From positions 434,001 to 498,000 of the forward strand of contig JANQOQ010000006.1 in NCBI GenBank assembly GCA_028285755.1: 64,000 nucleotides of DNA, written 5' to 3'. Origin of the DNA: Puniceicoccaceae bacterium. Its GTDB lineage: Bacteria; Verrucomicrobiota; Verrucomicrobiia; Opitutales; JAFGAQ01. Under the pieces are notes generated by a model, which searched no databases, was not told the DNA's origin, and worked only from the letters and a program-made list of their open reading frames with translations. The position numbers and the translations under genes are program-made. Below, piece by piece: positions 57,991 to 61,702 of the stretch (within the stretch, counting starts at the first letter, position 1; each line of letters opens with the position of its first letter).

Positions 57991-58152
57991 AGTTTAAGAC
58001 CTACCAACGCAAACAGGGGCGTCAACAGGTTAATCGGAAGAAGTCGAATATTGAGGAAATTTTTGCTTTCGGAAATTCTGAGTTGATCTACACTAAGTTG
58101 TAAATTGCACTAAAGGCACACAGCCTTTCCGCGTTAATCATTGAGATAATCT

Positions 58153-58641
58153 ATGGAACACCAGCAACTCATCATCCGCTCAAACCGATATCTCACTGCG
58201 ACTCTACTGGAACGCAAACTGATCAGTGCCGAGGACGCAGAGCAGGCAAACGCCAAATTACTCTCCCTGATCCAGGCGGACAATATAAAACAAACCTCGG
58301 TGTTGAATATCCTTATCTATGAGCTCAAAGCGCTCGAGGAAAGCGTCCTGATCAATAATATGGTGGATGTCGATAAGGCGGGATTAATTCATCTCTCAAA
58401 TATTGATTTAAAGTTGTCTGCATCCTTGAATCCTGACTTTTCACTCAATTGGGCAACCTGGTCGCTGCCCTTTGATCGTTTGGGAAACTCCATCTGTATT
58501 GCCACAAGCTACCTATTGAGCTCCCCGGTTATCGAATTTTGGCAAACGCAGTTTGAAAAGGACATCGTCTGGTATGCCACCGGCATACAATCGCTGACGG
58601 ATGCCCTCGAACGGCTCGAAGGTAAAACGAGCGAAAGCTAA
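58153..58641 (+). CDS. Free-standing GspE/PilB N-terminal (MshEN)-like protein
   Basis: This 162-residue protein resembles the N-terminal domain of type II secretion and type IV pilus ATPases (GspE/PilB, MshEN fold) without any ATPase part. Residues 13-70 hold the helical repeat (LLERKLISAEDAEQAN, then a second copy), and residues 98-155 match the compact block in which a WSLPFDRLGNSICIATSYLL stretch is followed by the terminal dI-x-x-ai-x-r helix (SLTDALERLEG). In some relatives this domain binds c-di-GMP. Two response regulators follow downstream. The assignment rests on pattern similarity, so it is tentative. Confidence 0.6.
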   Translation: MEHQQLIIRSNRYLTATLLERKLISAEDAEQANAKLLSLIQADNIKQTSVLNILIYELKALEESVLINNMVDVDKAGLIHLSNIDLKLSASLNPDFSLNWATWSLPFDRLGNSICIATSYLLSSPVIEFWQTQFEKDIVWYATGIQSLTDALERLEGKTSES

Positions 58642-58714
58642 TTTTCGAAAAATTTGCTAAAAACTACGCATGATTACTTGTTCATTAATTTAAATACGAT
58701 TTAGGCCGACATAA

Positions 58715-58743
58715 TAGGCAGCAATCGAATTTAATATTATAAT
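58715..58743 (+). promoter_or_regulatory. Promoter for the CheY-like response regulator
   Basis: TAGGCA (58715-58720, 4 of 6 consensus bases) and the perfect -10 TATAAT (58738-58743) are 17 bases apart. The -10 ends 9 bases before the ATG at 58753, so the message would have almost no leader. Confidence 0.55.
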
Positions 58744-58752
58744 AGAATAACC

Positions 58753-59121
58753 ATGCCAGGAAGAATACTAGTAGTAGACGACGATGATGACTTTCGCCAG
58801 TTACTTGCGGATGTTTTTGCTCAGGCAGGCTATGAGGTAGTAAGTAAAAATAACGCCCATCATGCCTTGGAAACTTTTGAAGAATCCGACTTCGACGCAG
58901 TGGTCACCGATCACAATATGCCTGAGATGACCGGGGAAGAACTTGTGCAGAGTATTCGGTCCAGCTCGCCGCAAATCCCGATCATCCTCGTATCCGGCTA
59001 CTTGAATCAGGATTTAATCCAAAACCTTAAAAACATTAATACCGAAATTTTTCATAAGCCCTTAAATGTGATTTCACTATTGCGTAAAACCAGCGAGAAA
59101 TTAAACCTTGCTGCCAAATAA
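58753..59121 (+). CDS. Single-domain response regulator (CheY-like)
   Basis: This 122-residue protein is a receiver domain only. The acidic pocket is DDDDD at residues 9-13, the phospho-acceptor is Asp53 (VVTDHNMPEMTG), the switch Ser is 81 (LVSGY) and the conserved Lys is 102 (FHKPLNV). The next gene encodes a closely similar receiver at its N-terminus, so the two arose by tandem duplication. No sensor kinase lies in the window. It probably passes signals by protein contact. Confidence 0.93.
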   Translation: MPGRILVVDDDDDFRQLLADVFAQAGYEVVSKNNAHHALETFEESDFDAVVTDHNMPEMTGEELVQSIRSSSPQIPIILVSGYLNQDLIQNLKNINTEIFHKPLNVISLLRKTSEKLNLAAK

Positions 59122-59142
59122 AACGCATAATCACAGATTTGA

Positions 59143-60510
59143 ATGGGTAAACGTATTTTAATAGTCGACGACGACGACGATTTCAGAACGCTGCTGGCGG
59201 ATTTATACACACAGGCAGATTATGATGTCACTTCCATGGCGAATCCGTTGGAAGCACTTAGCCTGCTCACCCGAGAGGACTTTGATCTGTGCGTTACCGA
59301 CCAGAGTATGCCTGAACTCAAAGGCATCGACTTCATCGATAAAGTTCGCGAAATTAAGCCCCGAATTCCACTGATTATGGTTTCGGCCTACCTCAATGAG
59401 GAGGTATCTGAGCGCTTGAGTGCACTACGTATCGAAGTATTTCACAAACCCCTGAATGTGATGTCTCTGCTGCGCAAGACTGCCGATATGATCAATACGG
59501 AAGTGGTTGATATCGAGAACGACGACATCAAACGCAGTTCGAGCCAGGTGGAGTCCCACAACTCCGGCCCGATTGCCCAGTCCAACCGGGATTTCAAAGC
59601 ATTTCCACTCCTGTCAAAGGTATCCAAACAGTTTCATCAGGAGCTGCTTACTGTTAAAAACAACCTCAACAACCTAGTGTTGGTTGGATCACCGGGCACT
59701 CATTTCCACACCATCTGTGAAGATGTAGAATCATTCCAGAATCCGGACGACTACCACTTTGTTTTCCTGGCAAACAAGGAAATTACCCCCTTCGAAATCT
59801 CAAAACGAATATCCGGTGAATCAACTTCCAAGACAGTCATCGTTACACTTTACGAAGCCTTTAACCTTGAGGCCATCCATAAAGACATCCTGGTAAAACT
59901 CTATAAAAAGAGCGGCCCATTCTCTGGAGTACTCAATAACGTAAAATTCATCTTCTGCCTGCATGAAGACCTCGATACGCAGTATTCCAAGGGCCTACTG
60001 GATGAGGATTTTTATCTAATACTCGGACAGAAGGAAATTTTTGTACCCGACCTTAAGGACTGCCCGGAAGATATCCCGGAAATGGCAGAGACTATCGCCA
60101 GCAGTTTTTTGGCAGCTCACTCTGAATATGGCAACAGTGCCTCATTCACTGCAGATGCAACGGAGTATTTAAAAGAAGAAAGCTGGGAAAACCAATACCA
60201 GAGTCTTTATAATACCATAATCAATGCTGTTATTTTATCCAATGGGGAACCCATCACTGCATCCCTGCTGCAAACAGCAAAGACTAAAAACCCACCGGCT
60301 AAAATCGCCGCTCAATCGGGTGCGGATCAGTCTGCAATTATTAATAAACCCGCCGCGAAACCCAAGTTAAGCCCCCCAGAAACAGGTGAGAAGGCCGATG
60401 CGGCTCCAGTGCCCTCAAAAACAGCTACCCATTCCCCGCGGGTCGTCACATTTAAAAATTTGATCGATGAGACCGAACTGGCCGAGCAAATCCTTGTGAA
60501 GCAAGCCTAG
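59143..60510 (+). CDS. Response regulator with degenerate NtrC-like AAA+ domain
   Basis: This 455-residue protein starts with a complete receiver (acidic pocket 9-13, Asp53, Ser81, Lys102). Residues about 150-380 align in order with the sigma-54 AAA+ domain of NtrC-type activators, but the key motifs are gone: the Walker A site reads VGSPGTHFH (181-189, no GxGKE), the Walker B region is TVIVTLYEAF (231-240), and the GAFTGA loop is absent. The block DEDFYLILGQ, VPDLKDCPEDIPEMA (287-315) and ESWENQYQSLYNTI (346-359) match the NtrC sensor II regions. There is no DNA-binding Fis domain; a proline-rich low-complexity tail (about 384-435) ends the protein. It is 21 bases after the CheY-like gene. 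Confidence 0.88.
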   Translation: MGKRILIVDDDDDFRTLLADLYTQADYDVTSMANPLEALSLLTREDFDLCVTDQSMPELKGIDFIDKVREIKPRIPLIMVSAYLNEEVSERLSALRIEVFHKPLNVMSLLRKTADMINTEVVDIENDDIKRSSSQVESHNSGPIAQSNRDFKAFPLLSKVSKQFHQELLTVKNNLNNLVLVGSPGTHFHTICEDVESFQNPDDYHFVFLANKEITPFEISKRISGESTSKTVIVTLYEAFNLEAIHKDILVKLYKKSGPFSGVLNNVKFIFCLHEDLDTQYSKGLLDEDFYLILGQKEIFVPDLKDCPEDIPEMAETIASSFLAAHSEYGNSASFTADATEYLKEESWENQYQSLYNTIINAVILSNGEPITASLLQTAKTKNPPAKIAAQSGADQSAIINKPAAKPKLSPPETGEKADAAPVPSKTATHSPRVVTFKNLIDETELAEQILVKQA

Positions 60511-60514
60511 TTGA

Positions 60515-61702
60515 TTATCCCTCACTATTCTGCGCAGTCGGTATCTCTATACCATAACTACGCGGATCAATGAGCTCACGCTTACGGTTAATATAATATG
60601 CCAGGGTATCCTCGTCATCCGGGTTCACCACATCGATCCGTGCAGGCCTGCCCGTTGTAGGTTGATCCGGATTAAAGCTGCTGACTAAAAATTGATTACC
60701 CACGGGGCGGATAATTTCGCGTACCCCATTATTCCAAAAAATGACCGCCGCATCCACATCCGGCCTCCATTTACCTTTAACACCCCCATAACGACTCGTC
60801 CACGCATTACTGAATCGACGCAACTTGATGGTGTCTTCGGAATACGGAGTTGTGCCGATATTCCACTGACCATGAAAGAATGCACGGATCTGGCTGGGAT
60901 TTCTCAAGACCGCAAATGATACCCGCTCGATGAAATCCTGATCGAAGTTCTTTTTCCATTCGGTGGGTAAATCGTCCACACTGATGGGTAGCAACCTGCT
61001 GGTAAACCCTTTGGCCGTTTCGAGCAGTTCGCCCGAGCGTATGGTCGTTTGCTCGACACGACGCCCGTTCAAGCCAATCTCTGTGTAAGAACCGTCATTC
61101 CAGAAAATATTCATGCGCGAACCATCTTTGCGCCAAAATCCAATCACATTCTGGTGCTCTTCGCTCGCATCGTACTCTGAGAATGCGACCGTTGCTGCAG
61201 CCGTCCGGTTATCCTGCAAGTAAAAATAAAACTTTTCACCGGAAATCAGTTCACCCTCCCAGGCACCAAAAAAACCTTCACGATCTTCATCATCATCATC
61301 ACTCGCATTCGGATCTACAGTCATGCGTCCGATGCTGCGGTCGTTGAGCTTGATCGCCTGCATGACTGCAGTGTTGCTGGATACTTCAAAATCAGTCGGA
61401 AATGTATAGCGCGCATCCGCAAGCTCTTCATTAATAGTCCCGAAGCTGATGACCATACCATCCTCGAACTTAAGCTCGATACCAGTGGCGATTTCCTCCC
61501 AGGTGCCCTTGATAATTGGAGTCTCCCTGCCCTTTCCTAAGAAGTATGAACAGGTATTATCCGATTTAATACGAAAGAATATATCCCCGATCTCATTATG
61601 CACGCTCAACCACATACCAACATTATTGGCCTGCACGGGCACGATACTGATCAGGAAGGCAAATGCCGAAAACAGAAAACAAGTGAGTCGTTTCAAAATC
61701 AT
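60515..61702 (-). CDS. Exported protein with three internal repeats, unknown function
   Basis: I do not recognise a named family. The 395-residue protein has a signal peptide (about 1-25, FLISIVPVQA). Three repeats of about 60-65 residues share a pattern of G-x-W, a stretch of beta strands with polar turns, G-x-W and then F/W-x-D/N-G at the end: about 28-90 (GMWLSVHNE to FEDG), 143-210 (GAWEGELIS to WNDG) and 287-348 (GQWNIGTT to WNNG). The acidic DDDDED run near 136-142 links repeats 1 and 2. The fold may be lipocalin- or beta-barrel-like. It is convergent with the response regulator gene, 4 bases apart. Confidence 0.7.
   Translation of the reverse strand: MILKRLTCFLFSAFAFLISIVPVQANNVGMWLSVHNEIGDIFFRIKSDNTCSYFLGKGRETPIIKGTWEEIATGIELKFEDGMVISFGTINEELADARYTFPTDFEVSSNTAVMQAIKLNDRSIGRMTVDPNASDDDDEDREGFFGAWEGELISGEKFYFYLQDNRTAAATVAFSEYDASEEHQNVIGFWRKDGSRMNIFWNDGSYTEIGLNGRRVEQTTIRSGELLETAKGFTSRLLPISVDDLPTEWKKNFDQDFIERVSFAVLRNPSQIRAFFHGQWNIGTTPYSEDTIKLRRFSNAWTSRYGGVKGKWRPDVDAAVIFWNNGVREIIRPVGNQFLVSSFNPDQPTTGRPARIDVVNPDDEDTLAYYINRKRELIDPRSYGIEIPTAQNSEG

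Follow-up and report, generated by a model that had tools for sequence, protein, structure and literature searches.

A separately made GSPII domain beside two receiver proteins looks like a control unit for type IV pilus extension

Introduction

Three plus-strand genes stand isolated amid minus-strand genes in the window, by which we mean the whole stretch of 64,000 nucleotides that has been analysed, and they raise the question of what a small protein of the MshEN type may have to do with two response regulators encoded directly after it, given that no kinase gene is linked to either of the regulators. The original prediction, made from the letters of the DNA, had treated the three genes (here A, B and C) as a signalling module belonging to no described system, and a literature search over the titles and abstract beginnings of open-access papers has likewise returned no description of the A-B-C gene set. 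What was absent from that prediction is the connection with PilB, the ATPase of type IV pili, and it is this connection that explains the gene set. A-B-C would belong among the regulators of PilB, which is already a known kind of control, and looks like an undescribed control unit for type IV pilus extension, not like a c-di-GMP sensor. What the N-terminal GSPII domain does in pilus motors is called poorly understood in the available text of PMC11656802, and a GSPII domain that is made as a separate protein can be deleted, mutated and complemented with the ATPase left untouched.

Layout of the locus

The features of the locus are the following.

57991-58152, no strand: intergenic stretch upstream of A, from the ORF positions.
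58153-58641, plus strand: gene A, 162 aa, stand-alone protein of GSPII/MshEN fold, from AlphaFold2, Foldseek, VIA-align and profile matches.
Gene A, about residues 2-74: ND0-like part of four helices, from AlphaFold2 secondary structure.
Gene A, about residues 75-161: ND1-like alpha/beta part, from AlphaFold2 secondary structure.
58753-59121, plus strand: gene B, 122 aa, single-domain receiver, from the Response_reg match (E 3.6e-22) and the pocket DDDD/D53/S81/K102.
58909-58911, plus strand: codon of the putative phospho-acceptor Asp53 of B.
59143-60510, plus strand: gene C, 455 aa, receiver followed by a pseudo-AAA+ NtrC-like domain, from Pfam, AlphaFold2 and Foldseek.
59143-59496, plus strand: receiver domain of C, residues 1-118, with the Asp53 codon at 59299-59301, from Pfam and alignments.
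59605-60303, plus strand: pseudo-AAA+ domain of C, about residues 155-387, lacking Walker A and the GAFTGA loop, from AlphaFold2, Foldseek and the motif check.
60304-60450, plus strand: linker of C, about residues 388-436, of low confidence and probably disordered (pLDDT below 50 at 389-410 and 412-436).
60451-60507, plus strand: C-terminal peptide of C, residues 437-455, FxxLxxExxxAxxIL, from an alignment of the window with loci L039, L042 and L043.

Across the intergenic stretch, the divergent neighbour of A is a minus-strand gene resembling sugar-phosphate nucleotidyltransferases. Neither promoters (4 sites against 4.7 expected by shuffling) nor terminators (3 against 3.1) have given a signal above the shuffled sequences. 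On the other side, the minus strand encodes at 60515-61702 a 395-aa protein with a start that by eye is signal-peptide-like and with no Pfam match, whose relatives (cluster c21) occupy the same position in L042 and L043.

Protein A is a stand-alone GSPII/MshEN domain

The original prediction of a stand-alone MshEN-like first gene has held up on the fold, while the profile search by which it was to be checked has fallen short on the Pfam score. MshEN (PF05157) is the sole Pfam match of A, yet at 13.1 bits (E 0.096) it stays below the cut-off of 23.1 bits, and within the A family the domain is matched at E<=1 in 14 of 38 members, with a best value of 7.8e-5. The AlphaFold2 model, for which these 38 family members served as input alignment, has a mean pLDDT of 93.3, and the best 20 Foldseek matches to it in the PDB are all N-terminal domains of PilB/PilF, MshE or XpsE. 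The closest of them is the GSPII-A domain of Thermus thermophilus PilF (9g1w; Foldseek E 3.5e-6, as also for MshE, 5htl), with an rmsd of 3.7 over 147 residues and a VIA-align Z of 13.8, followed by XpsE-N with 12.6 and MshE with 12.0; the middling rows outside the MshEN family have been left unused. Profiles of the A family match PilF (1.3e-5), Myxococcus xanthus PilB (1.5e-4) and MshE (0.0029), and with hhalign the family can be aligned to the PilB N-terminal domains from the same loci (148 columns, E 1.4e-5). Because structure matches, profile matches and the alignment with PilB N-terminal domains agree, A is a stand-alone GSPII/MshEN domain. It is unlike PilF GSPII-A in that the latter is fused to two more GSPII domains and the ATPase, whereas A stands by itself and in some genomes has receivers as partners. 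Among the A-family proteins tried, none exceeds the cut-off of any NCBIfam family, and the NCBIfam c-di-GMP motif model reaches 18.5 bits with the A protein of L041, below its cut-off of 38.

That A might be a frameshifted or truncated PilB has been rejected, as it is a single open frame and no A row contains internal stops, as the window's genome carries a separate and intact PilB, and as the A tree groups by neighbour label with 8 label changes against 22.8 after shuffling, a grouping that is favoured by near-copies and in which several deep forks are weak. A, single-copy in this genome, has no Pfam match to the T2SSE ATPase domain that is present in the genome's PilB. The latter is a 577-aa protein with both domains, its own MshEN domain included (a reported 'TAG' is no break), and is encoded on another contig (C13), away from A-B-C.

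The gene neighbourhood ties A to pilB across the order

Among the 87 genomes of the relatives set, 36 carry A. Its surroundings have been followed in these genomes and also in named contigs, of which the 80 best among 147 confirmed ones were taken; 79 of these 80 have titles naming Verrucomicrobiota/Opitutales-type taxa and one is titled only 'bacterium'. Genomes and contigs together hold 119 A genes, five rows being identical between the two sets. In 92 of the 119, pilB lies no more than 250 bp downstream of A (median gap 5 bp), and in a further 9 it follows further downstream on the same strand. For the other 18, no pilB is found in the stretch examined, some of these stretches ending at a contig end. 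In a sample of the phylum, the A profile matches 73 of 387 genomes at E<=1e-6: the 42 from the window's order score at least 177 bits, save two broken or partial matches, and the 31 from outside the order reach 53 bits at best, mostly in ORFs of PilB size.

The prediction that the three genes are conserved as neighbours has proved right for the window's family, where A, B and C are adjacent in all five genomes. Beyond this family it needs restating, since the three-gene form has been seen only here and the more widespread unit reads A-pilB or A-C-D-pilB, where D denotes another pseudo-NtrC protein. As the set occurs in all five family members, two of which (L039 and L040) have flanking genes unlike those of the window, chance alone does not explain the A-B-C neighbourhood. 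C, counted at E<=1e-26, is present in 22 of the 36 A genomes and in 4 of the 51 others, with a Fisher value of 1.2e-7 that is overstated because the genomes are related. It is found without A in those four (G020, G024, G042 and G070), for which reason it may have another job, and G069 and G082 carry A and C at unlinked places.

Some loci deviate in detail. In L057 the order is A-C-D-A-pilB, so that two A copies flank C and D and pilB follows closely (L057:7289-11353); on the tree the pilB-side copy and the C-side copy fall apart, both on long branches. In L041 a 223-aa protein with no Pfam match (L041:9199-9870) lies between C and D, and its relatives (cluster c17) are in the same position in L045 and L046.

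Once split from pilB, the family's A, B and C might have been taken over by a different process, for example by another secretion ATPase or by polysaccharide export. This we think improbable. The family's unit is indeed unlinked from pilB and in the window adjoins sugar-nucleotide genes, and the genome has, besides PilB, one more ATPase of this superfamily, which is GspE-like and matches MshEN weakly (21.5 bits). Yet there is no fixed association of A-B-C with the genes around it in the window, because the set persists in L039 and L040 beside other flanking genes; moreover, the window's genome has retained PilB, and the linkage of A with C is shared with relatives that have pilB in the same run. 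Control of pilus extension through PilB stays the preferred reading.

B and C keep their phosphorylation pockets, and C has lost its activator motifs

Both regulators carry a receiver domain (for C, Response_reg E 3.3e-20). The original prediction had noted that the two share an acidic pocket, Asp53, Ser81 and an FHKPLNV block, and the alignment bears this out, with Lys102 in common as well and 49% identity over the receiver. All 30 aligned receivers (16 C, 6 D, 5 B and 3 ordinary NtrC) have an intact phosphorylation pocket. B, for which Pfam has found no DNA-binding domain, is by its sequence a single-domain response regulator of the CheY type, consisting of one receiver with an intact pocket. 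In the receiver tree B forms a clade with support values of 96/97 and joins the C receivers of its own family with 88/94; B downstream of A has been found only in this family (5 of 5 genomes), and the closest paralogue of C in the window's genome is B by a wide margin. Most simply, and with moderate support, B would be a duplicate of the C receiver that arose within the window's lineage, in agreement with the duplication that had been predicted.

C resembles NtrC/NtrX-type sigma-54 activators in its receiver and AAA+ fold. Its AlphaFold2 model (pLDDT 79.3) has NtrX and NtrC as best Foldseek matches, and Pfam traces of AAA_lid_14 (1.4e-5) and Sigma54_activ_2 (0.0049) are both below their cut-offs. 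It differs from these activators in having neither Walker A nor the GAFTGA loop, which holds for all 16 C and all 6 D proteins, whereas both elements are kept in the three ordinary NtrC controls; patterns for Walker B and the Arg finger have no match even in the control and have not been used. The description of C as a degenerate NtrC-like regulator has thereby been confirmed, and C as a working sigma-54 activator is rejected. In the window's family, a low-confidence linker and the conserved C-terminal peptide replace the tail that C has elsewhere, and the tail of C in L040 resembles that of L039 in the alignment.

The descent of C from NtrC-type activators, which is clear, suggests another explanation, namely that C and B regulate the transcription of pilus genes or of others, that their proximity to A reflects co-regulation only, and that A works separately at PilB. 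FleQ and VpsR are also among the structural matches of C, and both are DNA-binding regulators of this fold that are not known to act as typical sigma-54 activators; in other families the C-terminal parts of C look, by eye, like a worn Fis domain. Set against this are the loss of Walker A and of the sigma-54 contact loop throughout the C proteins, the lack of any Fis or HTH match by Pfam in the window's C, and the bare receiver of B. On balance transcriptional control seems unlikely to us, and a direct action of B and C on A is preferred.

A is probably not a c-di-GMP receptor

The original prediction had offered two roles for A, as a c-di-GMP-binding protein or as an ATPase adapter, of which the second has survived. 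The relaxed c-di-GMP motif, taken from Wang et al. (PMC5013675), occurs in none of 39 A proteins and none of 24 PilB proteins of the same loci; in controls on five stretches it found MshE twice, PilF GSPII-B once and the third domain of PilF once, and missed GSPII-A and one PilB (5zfr). At the position of the motif-I Gln, the A family has Leu, Phe or Met in 38 of 38 proteins, and at that of the motif-II Arg, an Arg in 1 of 38. MshE of Vibrio cholerae (5htl; PMC5013675), whose MshEN domain has the same fold as A, possesses two intact motifs, whereas A has none. PilF GSPII-A, the structure closest to A, is stated not to bind c-di-GMP in the available text of PMC12002112, where it is part of a pilus ATPase. 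With respect to genome content, the window's genome (97% complete) has no match to GGDEF at E<=0.001, so that no diguanylate cyclase has been found, and none to PilZ at the same threshold, at which controls match in 5 of 14 cases; GGDEF is absent from all five members of the window's family and from 22 of the 36 A genomes.

A as a c-di-GMP receptor with its output read by B and C is therefore rejected on motif, genome content and the absence of GGDEF from the family, and we regard it as very improbable in spite of the MshEN fold, the c-di-GMP-bound MshE and PilF GSPII-B among the structure matches of A, the retention of part of motif I (Leu14 in 35 of 38 and Gly15 in 31 of 38 A proteins, the window having Thr15), the indication in the available text of Wang et al. 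that a perfect motif is possibly not needed (PMC5013675), and the excess of GGDEF in A genomes (14 of 36 against 4 of 51 other genomes of the order), which points the opposite way.

A proposed role as an adaptor at PilB

The preferred reading, to which we give about an even chance, is that A is an unfused GSPII domain without ligand that docks as an adaptor on the PilB machine, with B and C as its phospho-switchable controllers. In this view the cell makes as a protein of its own, A, what in the extension ATPase of type IV pili is the N-terminal GSPII/MshEN domain, and this protein has lost the c-di-GMP pocket. Its docking partner would most likely be PilB or else the base in the inner membrane with which PilB's own N-terminal domain is in contact, and once docked A would set whether or where PilB works. 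C, composed of a receiver and a pseudo-AAA+ domain, is expected to be unable to hydrolyse ATP or to open sigma-54 promoters, and together with B, the putative duplicate of its receiver, it would be a phospho-switched partner of A. Phosphorylation of B and C by an unlinked kinase would alter their binding to A, and pilus extension would be licensed or blocked as a result.

This reading draws on the fold of A, its profile match with PilB N-terminal domains and the pilB gene downstream of it; on the TPR and MshEN proteins upstream of pilB in class-level relatives (below), the enrichment of C in A genomes and the A-C-D-pilB runs; and on the intact phospho-pockets, the loss of Walker A and GAFTGA in C and D, a precedent from Xanthomonas citri and a receiver-histidine kinase gene near pilB. 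In the precedent, the N-terminal domain of X. citri PilB (7lko; VIA-align Z with A 10.8) has no c-di-GMP motif and forms a complex with PilZ, whose C-terminal peptide is part of the contact, so that a fold like that of A serves as a motif-less docking surface for a protein, according to the available text of PMC8389850. The X. citri domain is fused to PilB and has PilZ as partner, whereas A is unfused and stands in a genome with no PilZ domain found. As for the kinase, contig C13 encodes on its minus strand (L168:9308-10423), 77 nt upstream of pilB, a 371-aa receiver-HisKA-HATPase protein, which is a candidate for the kinase of B and C. It occupies the spot upstream of pilB at which A stands in many relatives. 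No orthologue of D has been found in the window's genome, the best matches to D being C and B.

Several observations speak against the preferred reading: the family's A-B-C is not beside pilB, which in the window's genome is on another contig, and 18 of the 119 A genes have no pilB in the stretch examined; C occurs without A in four of the 87 genomes; A and C are unlinked in two genomes; A has no direct BLASTP similarity to the PilB of its own genome; and no kinase is linked. A more specific version is put forward tentatively, as possible and clearly less probable than the general one. In it, pilus extension would be under a two-component control independent of c-di-GMP, a GSPII domain supplied in trans would join or contact the N-terminal ring of PilB, phosphorylation of the receiver-pseudo-AAA+ protein would gate this docking, the family's C-terminal peptide of C would plug a pocket in the ND1 part of A as the PilZ tail does in X. 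citri PilB, and the conserved surface RSNRxLG...DLExAN of A may bind another ligand or protein. If the proposed control is true, phospho-receivers directly control pilus extension in bacteria in which no GGDEF gene has been found, and a role is named for pseudo-AAA+ response regulators.

Related forms in the class and a likeness to Myxococcus

In five class-level genomes, a protein of about 280-340 aa lies immediately upstream of pilB, which is the case in all five that carry one; for G234 the adjacency comes from a separate view of the locus, as the downstream check has no ORF at the expected place. TPR repeats are followed in this protein by an MshEN domain above the Pfam cut-off in the three of three that have been scanned. 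In the other five class-level genomes of the search, the matches are confined to ORFs of PilB size (560-586 aa). Elsewhere in the phylum, at 25 other TPR+MshEN loci, pilB is mostly not found in the stretch examined, and in some it lies 97-796 bp after an ORF that is possibly the wrong one; these loci carry no weight in our reading.

Myxococcus xanthus offers a known system with MglA, SgmX, FrzS and SopA in which, following the available text of PMC11580455, a receiver-type protein acts on the placement of the pilus motor and not on DNA. The FrzS receiver is devoid of the critical phosphorylation residues (PMC11580455), which are retained in B and C. A has no Pfam match to TPR, and MglA-like GTPases have been found in none of the 87 genomes of the order at E<=1e-15, in a search that had no positive control. 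The likeness lies in the TPRs of the class-level relatives of A and in one locus, L174:1971-7808, where a TPR+MshEN protein, PilB, a 661-aa protein, a Ras/Arf-like GTPase and a Roadblock protein are encoded in one run. This run is like a pilus-polarity operon and resembles, though it does not prove, the MglA/SgmX/FrzS logic of PilB recruitment in Myxococcus.
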